From assembly GCA_015069095.1 (NCBI GenBank), contig SVJH01000003.1, positions 1-64,000 on the forward strand: a stretch of DNA of 64,000 nucleotides, given 5' to 3'. The stretch comes from Oscillospiraceae bacterium (GTDB lineage: Bacteria > Bacillota > Clostridia > UMGS1810). Shown in pieces: positions 45,623 to 61,224 of this stretch. The notes below the pieces were generated by a model. The model saw only the letters and a list, made by a program, of their open reading frames with translations, made no database searches and had not been told where the DNA came from. Numbering within the stretch: position 1 is the stretch's first letter; every line of letters begins with the position of its first letter. A program made the translations under genes and the position numbers.

Positions 45623-48600
45623 TTATTTCTTGGTTAATGCAAACTGGTCATAAAGAACTCCGCCTGCTTCAGGGTTATCAAGATCAAAAATATACACACT
45701 TATTATAATGTCGTCCCCTACTTTTTCTGCAATTGCATACATTGATGCACCATTTAAATCAGTAGAATCAAAATCGTCTATTTCAAGATGAAGAACATCG
45801 TATGATGGAATAAGTGATACTTCAGGATCCATACATGTTGCATCGTATCCACCCGAATTTGTTGCAACAGAATGTAATGTTACATATGTTACACCTTCAG
45901 ATGCATCAAAGAATTTTGTTTCTTTGCCGTTAATTGTTTCTGTTTTAACAACTTTAGGATTTGGATTTCCAAGTTCAGTTTTACCTTCAAATGGTACTAC
46001 TTTACCTGTTTCTGAATCAAGATCTCCACCAAGTCCTACAATTGGATATGTTCTTGAGTAGCAGTGTGTATCTCCGCCAAGAACAAGGTCTATTCCAAGT
46101 TCTGAAAATACAGGCATTAGTGATTTCTTTCTTCTGTATGATGCACCTGTCAATGAACTACTTACAAGTGTGTTAGACTGTGGCTGTTCATGAGTTATAA
46201 CAACTTTCCATTTTTTATCTGATGCATTCATATCGGCTCTGAGCCAATCAAGTTGTTCATATGTACTGTTACCCAAGTCTTTACCATCATATGTAATCAT
46301 TGTAGTATCAATTACTGCTATGTGCATATCTTTATAATCAAATGAGTAATATGTTATACCTTTTGATGCACCTTCAGGTACAGGATAGTTAAAGTGTTTA
46401 GAATATGGTTGTTCTTTAAACGCTTCGCCGTCTTTTCTTCCTGCTGTATCGTGGTCACCAGGTGTACCGTTAAATGTTACATTAGGATTTGCAAAAGAAC
46501 CTGCTTTAAATATGTCTATCCACTGTTGTTCAAGATTATATGTTATAACGTTATCGCCCGCACTTAAAATAAAATCTCCGCCAGGATATGTTTCGTAGAT
46601 ATAATCCATCATTACACCCTTAGGTTTTGCAACAGTATATGAACTTGACTGTGGGTCTGCTAAAAGATAAATAAGTCCGTCTGTTGTAGAATTATCTACT
46701 GTTTTAAATGTGTATGTATCTGACCATACATTAAATTCCCTGTTACCTACTTTGTAGTAATATTCTGTATTAGGTTTTAAGTTTTTAACTACTGCTCTGT
46801 GTCTTATGCTGCTGTAATTATTAAAATCGCCATGACGTTCGTTATTTGAAACTGCCGTCTGATAAGTTGCATTTGTAAAGTCAGGAGTATCGCTTGTTTT
46901 TTCAACATAAGCAATTTCGCTTGTATAAATTCCTGTTGTATACCAGTTAAAACCTTTTTGTGTATATACATCACCATTAAATGACTGTGCTATTCTATCG
47001 ATTGTAATCTCTTTTTTAAGGTCTGCTACTGCAGGAATATCACTTATTGAACGTTCTGCATAAGGAACTAAACTTGCGCCGTCCCACAAATACATTTTTA
47101 ATACAATATCTGATGCGTAAGGACATTTAAGCTGACAAGATACAGTTTCTCCTGTAACATCTGCTACTGCTTTTGCATCGATAAGATCTTGTGTTTTGCT
47201 ATCATAAATACCTGCAATAAGCATTTGATTTTTTGTAGAATCAATCATTGAGTCAGGAACAAGCACGTCAAGTGCTACTTCACTGTTTGATACCAAAGAA
47301 AAACTTGGAATTACACCATTTATTTCTTTAACTTTTATATCATCTACATAATATGTACAAGGGTAATAGTCGCCTTCTACTGTATTAACACCAATTGCGT
47401 TAACAAGTGTGTTCTTACTTTGAGAATCTAATGCATAGATAGTATCGGCTGTTACTTCATAGTAAACTTTAAATTCTGTCCACTCGTTCCATTTAACTGT
47501 TTTTGTTACTGCACTTTTTGGATTTCCGCCGTACTTATATGACTGGTTATCATTTTTTGTGTCTGAACCAGGGCCGTTAAATCCAACAGAAAGTGAAGGA
47601 TAAGTTGCTTCGTTATTTACATTTAGTTTGTCTCCGCTAATATATCCGTCTACCGCTGCCTGAGTGCCGCCTGTAGGATATGCTCCGTATGTAGAATCGG
47701 CATAAACCCAAAGGGTAATTTCAAACGTTCTGCCAATGTCATCTTCTGTAAACATTTCCCAACCTTGTGTCCAGGTTATATCTGTACCGTTAAGAGGTGT
47801 TCTTGTTTTTTGATTAAATAAGTTATAGAATTTTAATCTGTACGATGTTCCTGCACTTATAGAACCATCTGCTTTTACACCGGTGCTCTTTCCGATAAGT
47901 GCTGCAACGTGAGATCCGCTTTTTGCATTTGCAAATTCAATAACTCCCGTATTAGGTTTTGTGAATGAGTTGCCGCCAACACCTATAATCTGGCTTGAAT
48001 TTGCGCTTGCTGAGTATAAAGGATTGCTTTCAAAGTCTTCAAAACTTAGCCAAGGAACTTCAATCTTTTCTTTTTCTTCATCGTTGTAAGTATATCTTAC
48101 ATTGTCGATATAGAATATATCTCCAGGGTTATTTCCTAAAACCTGAAAACGAATACGAGGGCTGATTTGATTGCCATCTGCGTCAATAAAAGCATCTGCA
48201 TCATATGTATATTCTAAAGATACAGTTGTCCACTTAAATGTTGGAATTGCATTGTCATCATAAAAATCCTTAGTAGCCGGATTTTTTGATTTTGTTCCGT
48301 CGCCTTTAGAAAACCAAAGTTCACAATTTCTTGATGTAACAGTTGTATCTACAGTTACTAAATAAACATCTGCACTTACAGTATATGTAACACCATCAAC
48401 AAACCCCTCTGCTTTATTTTCCGATGTATAAAGTCCTGTATATACATGGCAGGCATTTGTTTTGCCTTCTCTTTCTGCGCTTGTGCTGAAAGGTTGCTTT
48501 GCAACAAGATTATTTTCATCTAAAGGGTCTTTTGCAAGTTTCGGTTGTGTTCCATACTGTGTTTCACGCAAAATTTCATCAGGAATATCCTTGTTAACCT

Positions 48601-48757
48601 GTATTCCTGTGTTTTCAAAATCTTGCATAAAAAGTGTTTTTGTTACCACTTGTGATGCTTCGCCATCGATATAGCCGTTTTCACTATATTCCATAGCAAA
48701 AGCAAAACTTGAAAAGATAAGTGTAAATATTAGTAATAAAGTAATACTTCTTTTCAT
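45623..48757 (-). CDS. secreted calcineurin-like metallophosphoesterase with FN3/PAP-N and binding modules, copy 1
   Basis: 1044 residues. A signal peptide (1-21, SSFAFA) is followed by two CenC-like carbohydrate-binding-type modules (about 35-215 and 230-480), a linker, an FN3/purple-acid-phosphatase-N domain near 620-715 and a metallophosphoesterase from 725. Metal motifs are LLADPQS, LSAGDNV, TPGDHDTAG, VITHEQPQ and LVLGGDTHCYSRT. Compared with the purple acid phosphatase pattern, the GNH Asn and the first His of GHxH are both Asp, and the GDxxY Tyr is missing. Substrate unknown; extracellular phosphate ester or polymer cleavage is possible. Tandem paralogue of the next gene. Confidence 0.85.
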   Translation of the reverse strand: MKRSITLLLIFTLIFSSFAFAMEYSENGYIDGEASQVVTKTLFMQDFENTGIQVNKDIPDEILRETQYGTQPKLAKDPLDENNLVAKQPFSTSAEREGKTNACHVYTGLYTSENKAEGFVDGVTYTVSADVYLVTVDTTVTSRNCELWFSKGDGTKSKNPATKDFYDDNAIPTFKWTTVSLEYTYDADAFIDADGNQISPRIRFQVLGNNPGDIFYIDNVRYTYNDEEKEKIEVPWLSFEDFESNPLYSASANSSQIIGVGGNSFTKPNTGVIEFANAKSGSHVAALIGKSTGVKADGSISAGTSYRLKFYNLFNQKTRTPLNGTDITWTQGWEMFTEDDIGRTFEITLWVYADSTYGAYPTGGTQAAVDGYISGDKLNVNNEATYPSLSVGFNGPGSDTKNDNQSYKYGGNPKSAVTKTVKWNEWTEFKVYYEVTADTIYALDSQSKNTLVNAIGVNTVEGDYYPCTYYVDDIKVKEINGVIPSFSLVSNSEVALDVLVPDSMIDSTKNQMLIAGIYDSKTQDLIDAKAVADVTGETVSCQLKCPYASDIVLKMYLWDGASLVPYAERSISDIPAVADLKKEITIDRIAQSFNGDVYTQKGFNWYTTGIYTSEIAYVEKTSDTPDFTNATYQTAVSNNERHGDFNNYSSIRHRAVVKNLKPNTEYYYKVGNREFNVWSDTYTFKTVDNSTTDGLIYLLADPQSSSYTVAKPKGVMMDYIYETYPGGDFILSAGDNVITYNLEQQWIDIFKAGSFANPNVTFNGTPGDHDTAGRKDGEAFKEQPYSKHFNYPVPEGASKGITYYSFDYKDMHIAVIDTTMITYDGKDLGNSTYEQLDWLRADMNASDKKWKVVITHEQPQSNTLVSSSLTGASYRRKKSLMPVFSELGIDLVLGGDTHCYSRTYPIVGLGGDLDSETGKVVPFEGKTELGNPNPKVVKTETINGKETKFFDASEGVTYVTLHSVATNSGGYDATCMDPEVSLIPSYDVLHLEIDDFDSTDLNGASMYAIAEKVGDDIIISVYIFDLDNPEAGGVLYDQFALTKK

Positions 48758-48940: not shown

Positions 48941-51900
48941 TTATTTTGTTAGTGCAAACTGGTCGAACAATGTTCCGCCGTTTTGCGGATTAGCATAATC
49001 GTAATGGTAAATACTTATAATAATTTCGCCATCTACATAATCTAATACTGAATATGTTCCGATGTTTCTAATCGAACCTGATGTAACACCTGTTTCTTTA
49101 CCTACTATGTCATAAGATGGAATAAATGATACTTCAGGATTTAAAGCATTTGCACTCCATGATACTGATGATTTATTAACACTACCAAGTGTTACATATG
49201 TAACACCTTCTTTGGCATCAAAAAATTTTGTTTCTTTGCCGTTGATTGTTTCTGTTTTAACAATTGTAGGATTTGGATTTCCAAGTTCTGTTTTACCTTC
49301 AAAAGGTTCTACTTTGTTCGTTTCTGTATTCAAATCTCCGCCATAGCCATAAATAGGATATGTTCTTGAATAACGGTGTGTATCTCCACCAAGAACAAGG
49401 TCTATTCCAAGTTCTGTAAATACAGGCATAAGTGCTACTTTTCTTCTGTATGATGTACCAGTTAGTTTGTTACTTACAAGTGTACCTGCCTGTGGCTGTT
49501 CGTGAGTTATAACAACTTTCCATTTTTTGTCAGATGCTTTCATATCTTTTTCTAACCAGTCAAGCTGTTCTCTTGTTTTTGCGCCAATATCTTTACCGTC
49601 ATTTGTAAGCATTGTTGTATCTAAAATTGCAATATGAAAATCTTTGTAATCAAAAGAGTAATATGTTATACCTTTTGATGCACCTTCAGGCAATGGATAG
49701 TTAAAGTGTTTTGAATACTGCTGTTCTCTTTGCGCTTCGGCACTGCTTTCTCTTCCTGCTGTATCGTGGTCCCCAGGTGCTCCGTTAAATGTAATGTTAG
49801 GGTTTGTGAAAGACTGGGCATTAAATGTATCTATCCATTCCTGCTCTATGTTATGTGTAATAACAAGGTCGCCGGCACTTAAAATAAATTCGCCACCATA
49901 TTCGTCTATCATGTAATTTAGCATTTCTCCTTTTGGAAGTGCGCCAGGATAACTGCTTGACTGCGGGTCAGCCATAAGGAAGAATCTTCCGTCATCTGTT
50001 GTGTTATCTGATGTTTTAAATGTATAAGTATCGCTCCATACATCAAATTCTTTATTACCAACTTTGTAGTAATACTCTGTATTTGGTGTTAAACCTGTTA
50101 CAAGTGCTTTGTGTCTTACAGCACTGTATTCAAGGAAATTGAATAATCTTTCTATACTTGGCTCAGATTCCACGTAAGAAGCTTTTGACCAGTCTGGTGT
50201 ATCACCTGTTTTTTCAACATAAGCGATATCGCCTGAAGAAATTTTTGTTGAATACCAGTTAAACGCTTTTTGTGTGTAAACATCACCGTGGAACGACTGT
50301 GCAATTCTGTCTATTCTGTTTTGTGCTTTAAATTCTTCAATTGTAGGAACTTCCCAGTTAACGTGGTTCATATATGGAACAAGAGATGCGCCATCCCACA
50401 AGTAAAGTTTCATAAATAAATCTGCTGCAAAGTTTACATCAAATTCACATGTAACAGTTGCATCGCTAAGAGCAGTTAAAGCTTTTGCGTCTACAAGATT
50501 ATTTCCGTCATAGATACCTGCAATAACCATTGCATTATCTTTTCCATCAATCATTCCTGCAGGAACATAGATATCTGCTTTTACTTTATCTTCTGATTCA
50601 AGATACAAGTTAGGTGTAACTGTTAATTCTTTTACCATAATGTTATCAACATAGAATGTTGAAGGATAGTACAAAGAAACACCGCCACCTGATGAGTCAA
50701 TACCAATTGCATTAACAAGTGGGTTGTCTGTTGTTGCACTTGTGAAAATTGTATCTTCTGTTACTGTATATATAAATTTAAACTCTGTCCATTCGTTCCA
50801 TTCAATCGCTTTTGATGCAGCAACGTACATATTAGAGCCGTATTTCCATGTGGTGTTGACATTTTTTAAATCTTTACCCGGTCCCATAAGACCAACTCTT
50901 ATTGTTGGTTTTGTGTCGTCGTTGTCAAGGTCAATTTCATCGCCGCTTATAAATCCGTATGTACGTGTTGTATCGGCTGTGCCTTTTACGTTACCTTCTT
51001 CATCGTATTCAGTTGGCAATGTATATGGCCATGCACCATCAGAAGATGGACAGTATACAGATAGAGATACTTCAAATTCTCTTCCTATATCATCTTCTGT
51101 AAACATATCCCAACCTGTTGACCACGTTGGTGCTGTTCCGTTTAGCGGTGTCTTTTGTTCTGTATTAAATATGTTCCAAATTTTAAGTCTTCTTGATGTA
51201 CCCTGAACAATTTTACTACTGCTTGAACTGTATTTAACACCTCTGCCTATCATACCAAAAGCAGTTGTATCGCCAACAGTAACGGCTTCTTGTGTTGTTT
51301 TTGTACCTGATTCGCCACCGTAACCCATTGTGTTTTCCGGAGAAGCAGTTGTGCTGAATGCATATGAAGTTGGATCTTCAAAATCTTCGTAACTTACCCA
51401 GTCAACAGCAACTTTTTCTTTTTCACTTTCAGCGTATGTCCATTTTACGTTATCAACATACATATAGTCGCCATTTGTACTACCCGGAACTGTTATACGT
51501 GCCCATGTTGGGTTTTCGCTAAGAACACTTGCTTTGTATTGACAAGTTAATTTAAGTGTTGTCCATTCGCCTGGAACAATTGAATATGTTTGTTTTGCCA
51601 TTACTTTACTGCTTGCAGTAAGTCCGGTTGTATTCCACCAGATGTATGGTTCAGCCGAAGTTCTTCCTGTACTTGAATAGTAATACAAATCAACAGTGAT
51701 TGTATAAGTCTGACCATCTACAAACCCTAAAGTTTTATCAGTAGATGTGTATTTGTCTGTTTTAACTGTAATAGCAGGGTTGGATTTGCCGGAATAACAC
51801 CCTACTCTGAAAACATTATTTGTACCACCTGCAGGGTCTTTTGTAAGTGTAGCACCAATACCGCTGTTTGATGCAGTTGCATATGTTGACACAGTCGATG

Positions 51901-52054
51901 AGGTAACACTTTCAAAATCCTGTTCATAAACTATTTTATCTACACTTACAGTTGCTTCGCCATCTGTCATTCCGTTTTCGCTGTATTTTATTGCGAAAGC
52001 ACAATTTGAAAAGACAAGTGTAAATATTAGAAGCATTGTTAAAATTCTTTTCAT
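48941..52054 (-). CDS. secreted calcineurin-like metallophosphoesterase with FN3/PAP-N and binding modules, copy 2
   Basis: 1037 residues with the same plan as copy 1: signal peptide (1-21), two binding-type modules, FN3/PAP-N domain and a metallophosphoesterase carrying LMADPQS, LSAGDLV, APGDHDTAG, VITHEQPQ and LVLGGDTHRYSRT. Long stretches of the catalytic half are identical to copy 1, while the first module and the last 50 residues differ, so it is a tandem duplication followed by divergence at the ends. The upstream sequences of both copies also match (TTGTGATAT...AGGAGATGAT region), so they are probably regulated alike. The same two Asp substitutions occur in the metal site. Confidence 0.85.
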   Translation of the reverse strand: MKRILTMLLIFTLVFSNCAFAIKYSENGMTDGEATVSVDKIVYEQDFESVTSSTVSTYATASNSGIGATLTKDPAGGTNNVFRVGCYSGKSNPAITVKTDKYTSTDKTLGFVDGQTYTITVDLYYYSSTGRTSAEPYIWWNTTGLTASSKVMAKQTYSIVPGEWTTLKLTCQYKASVLSENPTWARITVPGSTNGDYMYVDNVKWTYAESEKEKVAVDWVSYEDFEDPTSYAFSTTASPENTMGYGGESGTKTTQEAVTVGDTTAFGMIGRGVKYSSSSSKIVQGTSRRLKIWNIFNTEQKTPLNGTAPTWSTGWDMFTEDDIGREFEVSLSVYCPSSDGAWPYTLPTEYDEEGNVKGTADTTRTYGFISGDEIDLDNDDTKPTIRVGLMGPGKDLKNVNTTWKYGSNMYVAASKAIEWNEWTEFKFIYTVTEDTIFTSATTDNPLVNAIGIDSSGGGVSLYYPSTFYVDNIMVKELTVTPNLYLESEDKVKADIYVPAGMIDGKDNAMVIAGIYDGNNLVDAKALTALSDATVTCEFDVNFAADLFMKLYLWDGASLVPYMNHVNWEVPTIEEFKAQNRIDRIAQSFHGDVYTQKAFNWYSTKISSGDIAYVEKTGDTPDWSKASYVESEPSIERLFNFLEYSAVRHKALVTGLTPNTEYYYKVGNKEFDVWSDTYTFKTSDNTTDDGRFFLMADPQSSSYPGALPKGEMLNYMIDEYGGEFILSAGDLVITHNIEQEWIDTFNAQSFTNPNITFNGAPGDHDTAGRESSAEAQREQQYSKHFNYPLPEGASKGITYYSFDYKDFHIAILDTTMLTNDGKDIGAKTREQLDWLEKDMKASDKKWKVVITHEQPQAGTLVSNKLTGTSYRRKVALMPVFTELGIDLVLGGDTHRYSRTYPIYGYGGDLNTETNKVEPFEGKTELGNPNPTIVKTETINGKETKFFDAKEGVTYVTLGSVNKSSVSWSANALNPEVSFIPSYDIVGKETGVTSGSIRNIGTYSVLDYVDGEIIISIYHYDYANPQNGGTLFDQFALTK

Positions 52055-52189
52055 TAAGTAATCATCTCCCTTGATAATATCATATCACAACAAAAATAAA
52101 AAAGATACTTGTTTTTTGCTCAAAAAAAGTATGATTTTTATTCATATTTTGCACTTTGTGTTGTGTTTGCAAAAAAACATCTTTTATGA

Positions 52190-52195
52190 TATAAT
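52190..52195 (+). promoter_or_regulatory. extended -10 promoter of the TetM-NYN gene
   Basis: TGATATAAT, an extended -10 element, with only a weak -35 (TTTGCA) 18 bases upstream; about 30 bases before the start codon. Confidence 0.6.
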
Positions 52196-52226
52196 TAAAT
52201 ATATAATTTTTTATAAGGAAGATACA

Positions 52227-54758
52227 ATGAAAAAAGAAGTTATTGGAATTTTTGCTCATGTTGACTCTGGCAAAACAACACTTTGCGAGGCGATACTTTA
52301 CAGCACCGGAAAAATAAGGAAAATCGGCAGAGTAGACCACAAAGATGCTTATCTTGACAACCACAAAATAGAAAAAATGCGCGGTATTACAATTTTTTCA
52401 AAGCAGGCACAAATTGATCTTGAAAATACGTCTTTTACACTGCTTGATACTCCAGGCCACGTTGATTTTAGCGCTGAAGCCGAAAGATGTATGCACATAC
52501 TCGACTATGCTATACTTGTTATAAGTGCATCGGAAGGCGTGGAATCTCATACAGAAACGCTTTGGAATTTACTTAAACTTTATAACGTACCTGTATTTAT
52601 TTTTGTTAATAAATCAGATATTGCAAAATGCGAAAAAGAAGAACTTTTAGCGGAATTAAAATCAAAATTAAGCGATGGTTGTATAAATTTTTCATCCGAA
52701 GACAAATTCTCTATTTATGAAGAAATTGCATATGCAAAAGAATCTCTTATGGATGAGTTTTTAAACGAAGAAAGTATTTGCGATAAAAGCATTTCCAAGG
52801 CGATAAGGACAAGGAACGTTTTTCCTGTATTTTTTGGCTCTGCCCTAAAACTTACGGGGATTGCCGATTTTTTAAACGGAATTGATAAATACACTTTAGA
52901 AAATAACTACTATGATGATTTTGGCGCAAGAGTATTTAAAATTACAGAAGATGAAGCACAGGGAAAACTTACTCATCTTAAAATTACAGGCGGAACTTTA
53001 AAAGTAAAAGATATAATAAACGACGAAAAAGTAAACCAAATAAGAATTTACTCAGGCGAAAAATACGAAGCAGTAAATGAGGTAAAAGCCGGCGATGTAT
53101 GTGCAGTTTTAGGTCTTACAAAAACATATCCGGGACTTGGGATTGGAAAAGAGGAAACGTTAAAGAAAACTCATCTTGAGCCATATATGAATTACAGAAT
53201 AATTCTAAATTCCGATATCGACCCGTATATAGCATATGAGAATTTTAAAAAACTTGAAGATGAAGACCCCAAACTTAAAGTTATGTGGAATGAATTATCA
53301 AAACAAATCCATATTCAGATTATGGGGAAAATTCAACTTGAAATTATAAAGCAAATTGCACTTGACAGATTTGGTATGAATATTGATTTTTCAAAAGGAA
53401 ATATATCATACAAAGAAACGATAGTTTCTTCTTGCTACGGAATAGGCCACTACGAACCGCTAAGACACTATGCAGAAGTGCATGTTTTAATTGAACCGTT
53501 AAAACGAGGAAGTGGACTAAAATTTGCTTCAAATTTAAGCGAAGATGTACTTTCAAGAAACTGGCAAAGGCTTATACTTACGCATCTTGAAGAAAAAAGT
53601 CATATTGGCATACTTACAGGCTCACCTATTTGCGATGTTAAAATTACTCTTGTAAACGGAAAAGCTCATCTTAAACACACAGAAGGCGGAGATTTCAGGC
53701 AGGCAACATACAGAGCGGTAAGAAATGCCTTAATGAAATCAGAAAGCATTTTACTTGAACCATGGTACGACTTTAAAATTGAAGTCCCTACTGAATGTAT
53801 AGGAAAAGTTATGACTGATCTTCAAAATATAAACGCTACTTTTGGTCAGCCAAAACTAAAAGATGATATGTCATCTCTTTCAGGAACAGCGCCTGTTAAA
53901 CATTTGCAGGATTATAATATAAGTGCATTTACCGGCGGAAGAGGAAAACTTACTCTTATGCCAAAAGGATACGATAAATGTGTTGATGAAGAAAGCATTA
54001 TAAATGAGTTTGACTATAGCGCCGAAAGTGATGTCGAAAACACGGCAGATTCTGTATTTTGTGCTCACGGCTCAGGTTTTAATGTAAAATGGGACGAAGT
54101 TGAAAAATATGCACATCTTGATATTATTTCATCATCAAAAGACGAAGAGATTATTGCAAATGAAGAAATTGAAAGACATATATCTCGCGTAGCATCCGAC
54201 GAAGAACTTTTAAGAATTTTTGAAATGACTTACGGAAAAATAAAAACAACTCCCGCATCAATGCGACGTGATAAAAAAATCGAAAACAACTTAAAACCTA
54301 TAAAAGTTAAACCGCAAAAAACAGGCGATAATTATCTTTTAGTTGATGGATATAACATTATCTTTGCATGGGATGATTTAAAAAAATACGCCGAAAAATC
54401 GCTCGATCTTGCAAGAGAAAAACTGATAAACCGTATGTGTAACTATCAGGCATTTAAAAAATGTAATATTATTTTAGTTTTTGATGCTTACAAAGTAAGT
54501 GGAAATATCGGAGAAGTTGAAAAAGTTAACAATATTGATATTGTATATACAAAAGAAGCCGAAACTGCCGATATGTATATTGAAAAAGTATCAAAAGAAC
54601 TTTCTAAAAACAATAATGTGCGAGTTGCAACATCGGATAATTTAGAACAACTTATAATCATAGGAAACGGTGCATTCAAAATAAATGCAGACGATTTTTA
54701 CAAAGATGTTATAAGCGTTGAAAATGCAATAAAAGAATATTTAAGCAAAAGAGAATAA
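52227..54758 (+). CDS. TetM-like ribosomal-protection GTPase fused to YacP/Rae1-like NYN ribonuclease domain
   Basis: 843 residues. Residues 1-690 follow the EF-G/TetM plan: AHVDSGKTTL (G1), MRGITIFS (switch), DTPGHVDF (G3), NKSD (G4), GSAL (G5), then domains II-V with SVFCAHGSGF near the end. Residues 702-843 are a NYN domain of YacP type: LLVDGYNII (Asp707), VFDA (Asp753), TADMYI (Asp782) and TSDN (Asp804), the conserved metal-binding acids. Bacillus YacP (Rae1) is a ribosome-dependent mRNA endonuclease that works in the A site, so the fusion would place the nuclease where TetM-like factors bind. Start chosen for AAGGAAGA; the longer frame upstream is untranslated leader. Confidence 0.87.
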   Translation: MKKEVIGIFAHVDSGKTTLCEAILYSTGKIRKIGRVDHKDAYLDNHKIEKMRGITIFSKQAQIDLENTSFTLLDTPGHVDFSAEAERCMHILDYAILVISASEGVESHTETLWNLLKLYNVPVFIFVNKSDIAKCEKEELLAELKSKLSDGCINFSSEDKFSIYEEIAYAKESLMDEFLNEESICDKSISKAIRTRNVFPVFFGSALKLTGIADFLNGIDKYTLENNYYDDFGARVFKITEDEAQGKLTHLKITGGTLKVKDIINDEKVNQIRIYSGEKYEAVNEVKAGDVCAVLGLTKTYPGLGIGKEETLKKTHLEPYMNYRIILNSDIDPYIAYENFKKLEDEDPKLKVMWNELSKQIHIQIMGKIQLEIIKQIALDRFGMNIDFSKGNISYKETIVSSCYGIGHYEPLRHYAEVHVLIEPLKRGSGLKFASNLSEDVLSRNWQRLILTHLEEKSHIGILTGSPICDVKITLVNGKAHLKHTEGGDFRQATYRAVRNALMKSESILLEPWYDFKIEVPTECIGKVMTDLQNINATFGQPKLKDDMSSLSGTAPVKHLQDYNISAFTGGRGKLTLMPKGYDKCVDEESIINEFDYSAESDVENTADSVFCAHGSGFNVKWDEVEKYAHLDIISSSKDEEIIANEEIERHISRVASDEELLRIFEMTYGKIKTTPASMRRDKKIENNLKPIKVKPQKTGDNYLLVDGYNIIFAWDDLKKYAEKSLDLAREKLINRMCNYQAFKKCNIILVFDAYKVSGNIGEVEKVNNIDIVYTKEAETADMYIEKVSKELSKNNNVRVATSDNLEQLIIIGNGAFKINADDFYKDVISVENAIKEYLSKRE

Positions 54759-54778
54759 GCATACCGTTTGGTATGCTT
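54757..54778. terminator. bidirectional terminator
   Basis: Stem AAGCATACC / GGTATGCTT with a GTTT loop and U-rich flanks on both strands, between the convergent TetM-NYN and FliB-family genes. Confidence 0.82.
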
Positions 54779-54783
54779 ATTCT

Positions 54784-55781: not shown

Positions 55782-57104
55782 TTAGTTGTATTTTGGAAGC
55801 CAGTCGCCGTGTGCTTCAATTAAATCATCGCACATTGCAACAATATCGTCAATTGAAAGTTCAGCCGCTGTATGTGGGTCCATCATTGCTGCCTGATAGA
55901 TTTTTTCTTTCTTTTTAGTAACTGCCGCTTCAACTGTCAAAAGTTGCGGGAAAATATTTGAACTGTTCATTGCTGCAAGTTGAGTTGGAAGATTTCCTAT
56001 TACTGTAGGATGTATACCGCATCCGTCAACCATACAAGGAACTTCAACTGTTGCCTCACGCGGAAGATTTGTAATAAGGTTATCATTTAATACGTTTCCG
56101 CCAATTTTATAAGGTGTATTTGTAACCATTGCTTCAAATATTCTTGATGCATACTCCTCACTTCTTGTGTGCTCAAGTTCACCTGAAAGTGCAGAATTTT
56201 TTCTATCTTCCCATTTTTTAATCTGGTCTATACATCTTCTTGGATATTCATCAAGAGGAATATTGTATTTTTCAATAAGTTCTGGGTATTTACTTTTTAT
56301 AAAGAACGGATTATACTCTGCGTTGTGTTCACTGCTTTCTGTGCAGTAGTATCCAAGACGGTTCATATATTCGTATCTTACCATATCGTTATGTATTACT
56401 GATTCATTTTTTTCTTTTGCAAGTTTTTTTGCAAGTGGATACAAATCGTTTCCGTCTTTGTCTTTTGTTTCAAGTAACCATGCCATATGATTTATACCTG
56501 CAATAAGGTCAACACTGTTTCCATCATACTCTGAAAGTCCTAATTTACCAAATAACTGTCTAGAGCAAACCTGAACACTGTGGCAAAGACCTATTGTTTT
56601 TACACCTGTAAATCTTTGCATATAGTTTGAAATCATAGCCATTGGGTTTGTATAGTTTAAAAACCATGCATCAGGACAAACTTCTTCTATATCATGTGCA
56701 AAATCTTCAAGAACAGGAATAGTTCTTAGTGCTCTGAAAATTCCGCCTATACCAAGTGTGTCGCCTATTGTCTGACGAAGACCGTATTTTTTAGGTACTT
56801 CAAAATCTGTAATTGTGCAAGGATCATACCTGCCAACCTGAATTGCATTTACAACAAAACGTGCATTTTTAAGTGCTGCTTTTCTATTTTCAACACCACA
56901 GTATACTGTTATTTTGGCTTTTGAATTATTGTATTTTTTGTTAAGTGCTTCAATAACACATCTTGATTCTTCAAGTCGCTGTGCATCAATATCATAAAGA
57001 GCAATATCAAGATCGTCTTTTAATGAATCACAAAGCATACAGTCGCCAAGTACATTTTTTGCAAATACGGTGCTTCCAGCACCCATAAAAGTAATTTTAG
57101 GCAT
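55782..57104 (-). CDS. GH4 family alpha-glycosidase (MelA/AglA-like)
   Basis: NAD- and metal-dependent glycosidase of 440 residues. The Rossmann start KITFMGAGSTVFAKNVLGD, the NYTNPMAM motif and the metal/specificity motif GLCHSVQ are typical. The CHS type is seen in alpha-galactosidases and alpha-glucosidases that act on non-phosphorylated substrates; GH4 also contains alpha-glucuronidases and galacturonidases, which would suit a xylan degrader, so the sugar is not settled. No signal peptide. The ATG at 57104 follows GGAGGAA. Divergent AraC-type regulator upstream. Confidence 0.88.
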   Translation of the reverse strand: MPKITFMGAGSTVFAKNVLGDCMLCDSLKDDLDIALYDIDAQRLEESRCVIEALNKKYNNSKAKITVYCGVENRKAALKNARFVVNAIQVGRYDPCTITDFEVPKKYGLRQTIGDTLGIGGIFRALRTIPVLEDFAHDIEEVCPDAWFLNYTNPMAMISNYMQRFTGVKTIGLCHSVQVCSRQLFGKLGLSEYDGNSVDLIAGINHMAWLLETKDKDGNDLYPLAKKLAKEKNESVIHNDMVRYEYMNRLGYYCTESSEHNAEYNPFFIKSKYPELIEKYNIPLDEYPRRCIDQIKKWEDRKNSALSGELEHTRSEEYASRIFEAMVTNTPYKIGGNVLNDNLITNLPREATVEVPCMVDGCGIHPTVIGNLPTQLAAMNSSNIFPQLLTVEAAVTKKKEKIYQAAMMDPHTAAELSIDDIVAMCDDLIEAHGDWLPKYN

Positions 57105-57157
57105 AATCAATTCCTCCAACTAATTTGTTATTTAGTGGTTTTATCATAACACAAAAG

Positions 57158-58269: not shown

Positions 58270-61224
58270 TTACTTAACAACAATTTCAATTGTGTTGTTG
58301 TTTCCTTTGTAGCAAGGAACATCTACTGATACAGTTTTGCCGTTTGCTGTTGCAGTTACTGTGTAATCGCCAAAATAACCTTTTACATTAAATTCGCCGT
58401 TTGCATCAGTTTTACCAGCTTCTTTTGTCCACCATTTATTGTAGAATAAATCCTGGAATACTTTTCCTGATGGTTTAATTGTCCAGTCATATTCATACAT
58501 AATTCTGTCTGTTTTTGTTTTTGAACTCCAGTCGCGGTGTCCCCAAAGCTGAATATATTCAACATTTTCACAAGCAAAGTAAGCGATAAGAGCATCTCTT
58601 ACAAGGTTACCCTGATAGTTCTGGTCTTCCCCTATTGTACCTGTGTCAAATTCTGTAATGTGAATTGGTTTTCCTGCTTTTGAAAGTTCATCAAGACGTT
58701 TTACTATATTTTCAGGTGTTGTTGTATAACCTGTGTGTCCCTGGTCGCCTATGATATCAAAATCAAGGTTTTCTACTGCCCACCAGAAGAAAGGTCCTTG
58801 TGTTTCTTCCCAAAGTACGCTTCCCGGTGTTGTCCAACCATCTGTTAGAAGAAGTTTTGCATGAGGAAGTGCTTCTCTTGCATATTTATACCAGTTAACA
58901 AGCACTTCTTTACCATGAACATTTTTAATTGTCTGATTAGAAGGTGTAGCAAGTCTTCCACCGTCTTCGTTTGATACATCCCAGTAGTTAATTATAGGAA
59001 GGTTTTTACCAATCCATTCAAAATGTGCTTTTACTTCAGCATCAAGCGCATCTTTGTCGTTTAATACATCAAGATATGTACCAATTTTTGTATTTTTATA
59101 TTCAGGAAGATTTGGTACGTTTTCGCCTGGGTCTGTATCCCAGATAAGTGCGTGGCCTTTTAAAGCTTTATTCATACCGTTTGCTTTAGCCCATTCGTAA
59201 ATTTTAGGAACTTCTGTGTATGTGATCTGCTGAGTTTGGTCTTCAAACATTCTGTGAAGTCCGCCTTCTGTACCTAATGAGTTAAAGTTTTCAACAACGC
59301 TTTTTCTGTACTGTTCGTTGTCCATATATGTTTTTGTATCTGTAGCACCTGCCATAGAAAGCATAATTTCGTGTTCATACATTTCTACTTTAACATCTGC
59401 ATTTGGAATGATATTTCCGTTTTCGTCTTTAACGATAACTTTAATATCTCCCCTTCTTACCTGTTCAATGCGTGCAAGAGCGTCTTTTCTCCACTGAGCA
59501 TCTTCCTCGCAACCTTCGTAAGAACCATAAGAGTTAGGCATATCATTTAATGTATATTTTTTGCCGTAGTTAATAACTTCAAATCCACCGATTTCAACAA
59601 CCTGATTGTAAATGCCAGGGTTAAATCCGATGTCTATTCCTTCTCCGCAATATGCATGAGTTGTCTGAAGCGGAAGATAAAGTGTGCTCCAACCGTCTGA
59701 ACACATAGCTTTTGTTCTTGCCCCGCCACTTCTGTTCTTTGTATTTATAAACGACATCTCAAATGCGCCCATTTTTGTATCGATATCGCCGCCTGATACT
59801 CTTCTGATATATGCTTTAATTAAAAATACATCATCATCTTCATATTTATCACTTACAAAGTATTCAGGATAAATTCTGAAGTTCATTTTCCATGTTGCAG
59901 ATGGAACTTTATTTACTGTAAATCTTAATACTTTTGTAAAACCAATACCGTCTGTAACTTCTGCCATTTCGTACGCGCCGTACTCTTCAATGCCTTCTGT
60001 TGTAAATTTAGAATCAAATACTGCTTCTTCGCCAAGTACTTTAACGCCGCCTTCAAGTTTTGAATAAACTACATCGGCTGCTTCAGGCATTGGGAAGTAT
60101 AAAAGATCATCAATTCTGTTTGATTTTTCAAATTTTGTAGGAACAGGTCTTTTATCTGTTGGATTTGCAAGTACGTTTGGAATACCTGCTGTTGAAGTTG
60201 TAACTTTAACTTCTTCTTTAATCTCTGTTTTTCCTAACTGTTCAACCAAAATGTCATCAATATATAGAACATCGATTGCTTCATTTACTTCAATTGAAAG
60301 CATACCAATTTGGAAATCTGATGCGTTTAGCGCATCAATAGTATAATCAAACTCTACTTTTGTCCATTCATTTGCATTAAGATCTGCGCCAATTACTGCT
60401 TTACCGCCAATTACGCCTTCTTTATAATACTGTGTTTCGTAGCTTTTATCCATTGCATCTGTATGAGCAGCTGCAAGCATACCAACCATAATATGACCTG
60501 CTGTTTTTGCTTTTAAGTACAATGTAATTTTGTACTGGTTGCCAATCATATCTTCTGTTATAGGACCATTGCCGAAAGTATTGAAAAATTTAACTCTTGA
60601 CTGTTTAAGGGCAACATTTTCCATTTTTAGTGATTTACCACTACCTGAAGTGTGGTCTTCTTCAGACGAAATTGAAAGCGCAAGCTTTGAGCCACCGCCA
60701 CCACCTACTCTGCCGTCGAACTTGTCAGAGTATGTAACATTTTCGTTGTCTTTTGTAATTAGAAACTCTGCTTCATCGTCAAAAGTTCTAACGTTATTTT
60801 TTGCCAAATCAACTGTAACAGTTTTTGTAGCGTCTTCCCAACCAACATTTGCACCAAGAGATTCAGAAATAAATCTTACAGGAACAAGTGTTCTTGAGTT
60901 AACAATCTGAGCAGGAACATCAAGTGTAACGTCTTTTCCGTTTACTTTTGCAACTGTGTTGTTAATCTGAAGTGATACTGTTTTTTCGCTAAGTTTTCCA
61001 CTTGCTGTTTTTGTGGCATCATCCCATTCTACAGTTGCACCAAGTGCTTCAAAAATTGCACGAAGCGGAACAAGTGTTCTGCCTTCTACTATAATTGGAT
61101 TTTGGTCCATCGTAAGTGTGTTTCCATTTACTATCACTTTAATTTCAGTTTCTGCAAACACGTTAAATGAAAAACACGAAACTACCATTAAAATTGATAG
61201 TACCAGACATAAAAGTTTTTTCAT
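58270..61224 (-). CDS. secreted stalk-domain GH10 endo-xylanase
   Basis: 984 residues. A signal peptide (1-25, ending NVFAE) precedes a copper-amine-oxidase-type stalk at 27-150 with GRTLVPLRAIFEALGATVEWDD and RTLVPVRFISESLGANVGWED. Then come a carbohydrate-binding-like module (about 160-335), a second beta-rich module (about 365-590) and the GH10 barrel with GHALIWD, acid/base Glu in YWDVSNED and nucleophile Glu in HITEFDTG. A C-terminal beta-sandwich starts ANGEFNVKGYFGDYTVTA. It would cut xylan at the cell surface. Its last 620 residues parallel the signal-less enzyme at 27407-29257. Confidence 0.9.
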   Translation of the reverse strand: MKKLLCLVLSILMVVSCFSFNVFAETEIKVIVNGNTLTMDQNPIIVEGRTLVPLRAIFEALGATVEWDDATKTASGKLSEKTVSLQINNTVAKVNGKDVTLDVPAQIVNSRTLVPVRFISESLGANVGWEDATKTVTVDLAKNNVRTFDDEAEFLITKDNENVTYSDKFDGRVGGGGGSKLALSISSEEDHTSGSGKSLKMENVALKQSRVKFFNTFGNGPITEDMIGNQYKITLYLKAKTAGHIMVGMLAAAHTDAMDKSYETQYYKEGVIGGKAVIGADLNANEWTKVEFDYTIDALNASDFQIGMLSIEVNEAIDVLYIDDILVEQLGKTEIKEEVKVTTSTAGIPNVLANPTDKRPVPTKFEKSNRIDDLLYFPMPEAADVVYSKLEGGVKVLGEEAVFDSKFTTEGIEEYGAYEMAEVTDGIGFTKVLRFTVNKVPSATWKMNFRIYPEYFVSDKYEDDDVFLIKAYIRRVSGGDIDTKMGAFEMSFINTKNRSGGARTKAMCSDGWSTLYLPLQTTHAYCGEGIDIGFNPGIYNQVVEIGGFEVINYGKKYTLNDMPNSYGSYEGCEEDAQWRKDALARIEQVRRGDIKVIVKDENGNIIPNADVKVEMYEHEIMLSMAGATDTKTYMDNEQYRKSVVENFNSLGTEGGLHRMFEDQTQQITYTEVPKIYEWAKANGMNKALKGHALIWDTDPGENVPNLPEYKNTKIGTYLDVLNDKDALDAEVKAHFEWIGKNLPIINYWDVSNEDGGRLATPSNQTIKNVHGKEVLVNWYKYAREALPHAKLLLTDGWTTPGSVLWEETQGPFFWWAVENLDFDIIGDQGHTGYTTTPENIVKRLDELSKAGKPIHITEFDTGTIGEDQNYQGNLVRDALIAYFACENVEYIQLWGHRDWSSKTKTDRIMYEYDWTIKPSGKVFQDLFYNKWWTKEAGKTDANGEFNVKGYFGDYTVTATANGKTVSVDVPCYKGNNNTIEIVVK

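Follow-up and report, generated by a model that had tools for sequence, protein, structure and literature searches.

What does a protein do that carries, in one chain, a GTPase resembling the tetracycline ribosomal protection proteins and a nuclease resembling Rae1? Rae1 is an enzyme that cuts mRNA inside the ribosome, and the C-terminal extension of TetM contacts the decoding centre. A gene for such a protein lies in the window, by which we mean the whole 64,000-nucleotide stretch of Oscillospiraceae contig SVJH01000003.1 analysed here. A sequence-only reading of this stretch had proposed a GTP-driven factor that recognises stalled or drug-bound ribosomes and cuts their mRNA. TetM and TetO bind the ribosomal A site (PMC7456112) and Rae1 destabilises mRNA in a translation-dependent manner (PMC10100781).

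The architecture itself was already known. Atkinson 2015 (BMC Genomics 16:78, PMC4342817) reports the fusion in ten clostridial species and suggests RNase-based tetracycline resistance. The proteins described there likewise join a Tet-type trGTPase to a C-terminal YacP-like NYN domain, come from Clostridiales and very probably belong to the same family as the fusion in the window. They differ in having been assigned to Tet, in a paper that predates the discovery of Rae1 function. Its main text mentions no Rae1 replacement, single NYN clade, tail loss or unfused members. Our search of the literature, which was not exhaustive, found no work on the fusion after Atkinson 2015 and no biochemical work on the GTPase subfamily. 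Four findings described here are new as far as the literature searched shows: that the fusion replaces stand-alone Rae1, that the fused NYN domains form a single clade, that they have lost the tail and that the GTPase is a separate subfamily.

Domain structure of the fusion protein

The open reading frame (52227-54758, forward strand) runs from an ATG at 52227 to a stop codon at 54756-54758 with no interruption between them. It encodes five EF-G-like Pfam domains in order and then an NYN_YacP domain (Table 1); the fusion of a trGTPase with a Rae1-type NYN domain in one polypeptide is real. It is no accident of sequencing or assembly: when named genomes were scanned, 75 of the 80 NYN loci that matched best proved to be in-frame fusions. 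The EF-G/TetM domain order previously assigned to residues 1-690 stands, with Pfam matches from 6 to 585, but the extent was overstated: the GTPase domains stop at 585, a conserved element continues to 630 and residues 631-701 are linker. In the full-length model pLDDT falls below 50 at 635-660 and 672-694 of this linker, which is approximately 70-120 residues long across fused proteins.

Table 1. Features of the fusion gene and its flanks in the window
Feature	Position	Strand	Basis
Promoter-like site, extended -10: TTTGCA-18-TATAAT or TTGCAA-17-TATAAT, TG before -10	52166..52195	+	Consensus match
Ribosome binding site AAGGAAG, ATG 5 nt on	52215..52221	+	Read from sequence
trGTPase-NYN fusion gene, 843 aa + stop	52227..54758	+	ORF, Pfam
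G domain, residues 1-223; G1-G5, switch I T55, catalytic H78	52227..52895	+	Pfam GTP_EFTU
EF-G-like domain II, residues 232-299	52920..53123	+	Pfam EF-G D2
EF-G-like domain III, residues 338-389	53238..53393	+	Pfam EFG_III
EF-G-like domain IV, residues 392-505	53400..53741	+	Pfam EFG_IV
Domain V, residues 509-585	53751..53981	+	Pfam EFG_C
Subfamily-specific element, residues 586-630, signature SVFCxHGxGxxVxWxEVxxxMH	53982..54116	+	Conservation, structural alignment
Linker, residues 631-701, mostly disordered; conserved helix DEELLRIFEMTYG at ~658-670	54117..54329	+	pLDDT, conservation
NYN_YacP (Rae1-type) endoribonuclease domain, residues 702-843; D707, N710, D753, E779, D782, D804	54330..54755	+	Pfam, PDB match, structure
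14-bp hairpin directly past stop; may terminate the converging gene, perhaps both genes	54752..54783	.	Scored on - strand

The Pfam GTP_EFTU match covers residues 6-223 (E 1e-49). Its G-motif residues K16, T17, T55, D74, H78, N128, K129, D131 and A206 are present in 69/69 fused proteins; S205 of G5 is found in 63 of the 69, and the other G-motif residues tested are invariant. All five G motifs reported from the sequence are there, and their residues are strongly constrained. The full-length model (pLDDT 84) has EF-G chains as its best structural matches. Judged by sequence and model, the EF-G-like GTPase is complete, with its GTP-binding and hydrolysis motifs intact. It is not the host's translocase, because the host genome encodes separate EF-G genes.

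The nuclease half matches NYN_YacP at residues 704-841 (E 6e-46; 157 bits, cut-off 24.6), and in a sequence search of the PDB its sole strong match is Bacillus subtilis YacP/Rae1 (5mq8/5mq9, E 1e-24). Since a structural search with the whole model leaves the NYN part untouched, residues 698-843 were modelled and searched alone (pLDDT 88). The model superposes on Rae1 5mq9 with Z 20.7 and 1.7 Å rmsd over 133 residues, and on 5mq8 with Z 18.4; PIN/FEN-type nucleases come after these at Z ~9. The objection that the C-terminal domain might not superpose on NYN nucleases, which the sequence-only reading had raised against itself, therefore falls away. Its YacP-type acids are likewise confirmed: D7, D53, D81 and D104 of Rae1 correspond to D707, D753, D782 and D804, of which the first three are each present in 69/69 fused proteins and the last in 68/69. 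The acidic active site of a Rae1-type nuclease is, on this sequence and model comparison, intact.

The fold and the four acids are shared with B. subtilis Rae1 (5mq8, 5mq9; Leroy 2017, as cited in PMC6613710). Rae1, however, stands alone in an rlmB-sigH cluster, has a basic C-terminal tail and lacks a GTPase, whereas the protein in the window is fused and tail-less.

Fused and stand-alone nucleases in Clostridia

The host genome has one YacP domain in all, that of the fusion. Is this peculiar to the host? We searched 137 Clostridia genomes of at least 95% completeness for the GTPase subfamily and for NYN_YacP. The fusion was found in 51, a stand-alone YacP in 42, neither in 44 and both in none; chance would place the two together in 15.6 genomes (n=137), an expectation that ignores kinship. 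Fused and stand-alone forms both occur within each of three families (f20, f21 and f25), so replacement is not merely one deep split. The chromosomal location differs as well. Stand-alone yacP has rlmB directly before it and sigH after it in B. subtilis and at three Clostridia loci (L156, L159 and L160). In the host, a P-type ATPase-like gene comes after rlmB, no rae1 adjoins it, and the fusion is at another locus. Judging from these genome comparisons, the fusion seems to have taken the place of stand-alone Rae1 in many Clostridia.

In a tree of NYN domains, all 42 of the fused domains sampled are in one clade (support 100/99). The sole other member of that clade is a stand-alone copy in genome G226 (L157 4290-4859), which has a basic tail; an unfused GTPase is found elsewhere in the same genome. 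A stand-alone NYN from Candidatus Lachnoclostridium avicola (L108 118-747), which was outside the tree, is also of the fused type by sequence and also has the tail. These two may have been freed again from a fusion or may be relics of the state before fusion.

The C-terminus of stand-alone Rae1 is a conserved basic helix, in which the R165 equivalent is arginine in 29 of 30 sequences. The window protein stops short of this helix. Among 106 rows counted as fused, the equivalent residue is arginine in two, one of which (L108) is really the stand-alone protein above. The tail goes with being stand-alone, because both stand-alone copies of the fused type have kept it. In B. subtilis, the R166P change in rae1 is a loss-of-function suppressor allele (PMC6613710). 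We infer from the sequences that the tail may assist the docking of free Rae1, a task that may fall to the GTPase in the fusion. Loss of the tail may also merely follow from fusion, with no hand-over of docking required.

Beyond these genomes, members of both fused and unfused length occur among 299 genomes sampled more broadly from the phylum, most of them from outside Clostridia. A phage or plasmid origin was considered and rejected. A search of viral contigs returned no relative; the NYN domain does match phage-labelled records, which have no annotation. Two fused copies were found in a plasmid collection, one in a Monoglobus record of 518 kb and the other in an Agathobacter record of 252 kb.

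A proposed function at the ribosomal A site

How might the two halves work together? Because one chain holds both, joined by the linker, the simplest reading is delivery of the nuclease to the A site by the GTPase. A long linker does not by itself put a nuclease at the A site. The protein is probably the Rae1 of its host bacterium with the delivery system, ribosome docking by the GTPase, built in. More tentatively, it might be a self-delivering, GTP-driven cutter of ribosomal mRNA in which an EF-G-type GTPase docks and controls the timing of cleavage by the nuclease, and which replaces free Rae1 in many Clostridia; it would then be a translation factor that has an mRNase of its own. The most economical reading is a GTP-driven A-site factor that cuts mRNA, and the replacement of stand-alone Rae1 agrees with it.

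Under this proposal the GTPase part would bind ribosomes with an open A site, as EF-G and TetM do, and domain IV would reach the decoding centre. On paused ribosomes the mRNA in the A site would then be cut by the tethered NYN domain, and the factor would be released for turnover by GTP hydrolysis. Cutting would create a non-stop ribosome that needs rescue by tmRNA, the gene for which is present in the host genome. The process would be one of translation-dependent mRNA decay or quality control, and not primarily one of drug resistance.

Alternatively, the chain may hold two functions, with the GTPase serving as an EF-G-like or rescue factor and the NYN domain being an ordinary Rae1 that is tethered for co-expression and is not delivered. 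The disordered linker would suit such an arrangement, as would the two stand-alone nucleases of the fused type (L053 and L108) and the unfused GTPase that G226 keeps elsewhere. Unfused GTPases also occur both with and without YacP: four genomes have one together with a separate Rae1 and four (G043, G048, G074 and G088) have one and no YacP at all. Because these last copies are in YacP-free genomes, the GTPase has a role of its own without the nuclease, and its function need not involve RNA cutting. Against this alternative, stand-alone Rae1 is wholly absent from the sampled fusion genomes and the tail is lost specifically in fused copies, which together suggest that fusion has changed how the nuclease is used. 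We regard two independent functions as unlikely.

The unfused GTPase of Ligilactobacillus salivarius pMP118 (LSL_RS10690, WP_164920261.1; L137 2986-4920) is 48.7% identical to the fusion over 632 residues, with the SVFC element included. Unlike the fusion, it has 644 amino acids and no NYN domain, and it is annotated as tetracycline resistance. It is only ~28% identical to Tet(M) and adjoins rpsN. In G088 the GTPase is unfused (L158 1799-3781) and there is no YacP, and in the other sampled genomes of its family (f17) that have this GTPase it is fused. It is possible that the G088 protein has lost its nuclease half.

If delivery by the GTPase is right, many gut and rumen Clostridia run translation-coupled mRNA decay by means of a GTP-controlled enzyme. 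The enzyme would also be one that is labelled tetracycline resistance in at least some records, which affects resistance gene counts in gut data. Rae1 itself could be studied by way of the fusion, with its defined docking module. The tail, present in stand-alone Rae1 and lost from the fusion, is a direct candidate for Rae1's own ribosome contact.

Relation to tetracycline resistance proteins and the setting of the gene

Could the fusion instead protect ribosomes from tetracycline, with the RNase as an added activity, as Atkinson 2015 suggested? The domain order I-V is shared with Tet(M) and Tet(O) (3j9y, 4v6v), and the model aligns along all of TetM with Z ~31 (VIA alignment, residues 1-624 to TetM 1-639). 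The differences are the tip of domain IV, the extra SVFCxHGxG element, the added NYN domain and an identity of 26-27% (26.2% to Tet(M), 26.5% to Tet(O)). The NCBIfam tet_protect score is 380.8 bits, below the curated cut-off of 775. In a tree the subfamily GTPase splits off from TetM/TetO with 100% support; this tree is unrooted, rooting being impossible because the TetM/TetO branch is very long, and fused versus unfused ancestry is not readable from it. On these sequence comparisons the GTPase, its unfused relatives included, forms a subfamily separate from Tet(M)/Tet(O). The earlier description as TetM-like consequently holds for domain order and fold and fails for class membership; it is a loose label, because the GTPase belongs to a distinct subfamily.

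At the tip of domain IV, H481-x-K483-H484-T485 is invariant where Tet(M) has S508-P509-V510. K483-H484 stands in the place of P509-V510, P509 aligning with K483 in 69/69 fused proteins, and H481 aligns with the domain IV residue H573 of Thermus thermophilus EF-G. In the structure of TetM, the position of Pro509 overlaps that of bound tetracycline (PMC7456112), and replacement of this proline by an invariant lysine speaks against drug protection. Even so, protection may survive the loss of the tip residues, because TetM keeps its activity when it carries the three changes S508A/P509A/V510A (PMC4750697) and the length of loop III is the same as in TetM. Against a resistance protein there are also the low identity and score, the commonness of the gene across Clostridia, its lack of conserved neighbours and the absence of a nearby Rfam family. 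Protection with an added RNase seems to us very unlikely, and score, identity and loop residues all argue against canonical tetracycline resistance as judged from the protein sequence. Annotation as tetracycline resistance does miss the architecture, as had been predicted: one relative is labelled 'TetM/TetW/TetO/TetS family tetracycline resistance'. Another relative is labelled 'translation factor GTPase family protein'.

The subfamily element has no aligned counterpart in TetM/TetO sequences, and in structure it overlies the C-terminal part of TetM. Its C612 and W622 are present in 69/69 fused proteins and H614 and H630 in 68/69. Unfused GTPases of Clostridia (L161-L168) mostly end in ...MHC, and fused ones mostly have ...MHL at that spot; together with C612 and H614, the ...MHC ending might form a metal or thiol site that was lost on fusion.

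Least likely of all is an rRNA or tRNA maturation factor in which the GTPase carries the nuclease to pre-ribosomes. Maturation of rRNA and tRNA was the first role proposed for YacP-type NYN domains (Anantharaman and Aravind 2006, cited in PMC4342817), and it is in keeping with the position of stand-alone yacP beside two rRNA-maturation genes, rlmB and mrnC. This reading is at odds with the translation-dependent mRNA destabilisation by the characterised member Rae1 (PMC10100781) and with the action of EF-G-like factors on translating 70S ribosomes.

A functional gene cluster was looked for and rejected, the commonest neighbour family occurring at no more than 5 of 81 loci. In the window both neighbours of the fusion gene are on the opposite strand and the gene looks monocistronic. 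Matches to the consensus like that of the promoter-like site at 52166-52195 arise as often when the region is shuffled. An Rfam search upstream of the gene and nearby matched no RNA families. Before the fusion gene, 45623-48757 and 48941-52054 (reverse strand) encode adjoining proteins of ~1040 amino acids, in each of which a purple acid phosphatase N-terminal domain accompanies a calcineurin-like phosphoesterase domain; the pair is probably a tandem duplication, and the second has a signal-peptide-like stretch at its start. Beyond it, also on the reverse strand, are a family 4 glycosyl hydrolase adjoining an AraC-type regulator (55782-57119) and a family 10 glycosyl hydrolase that also has a copper amine oxidase N-terminal domain (58270-61224), and these two hydrolases point to the use of plant polysaccharides.
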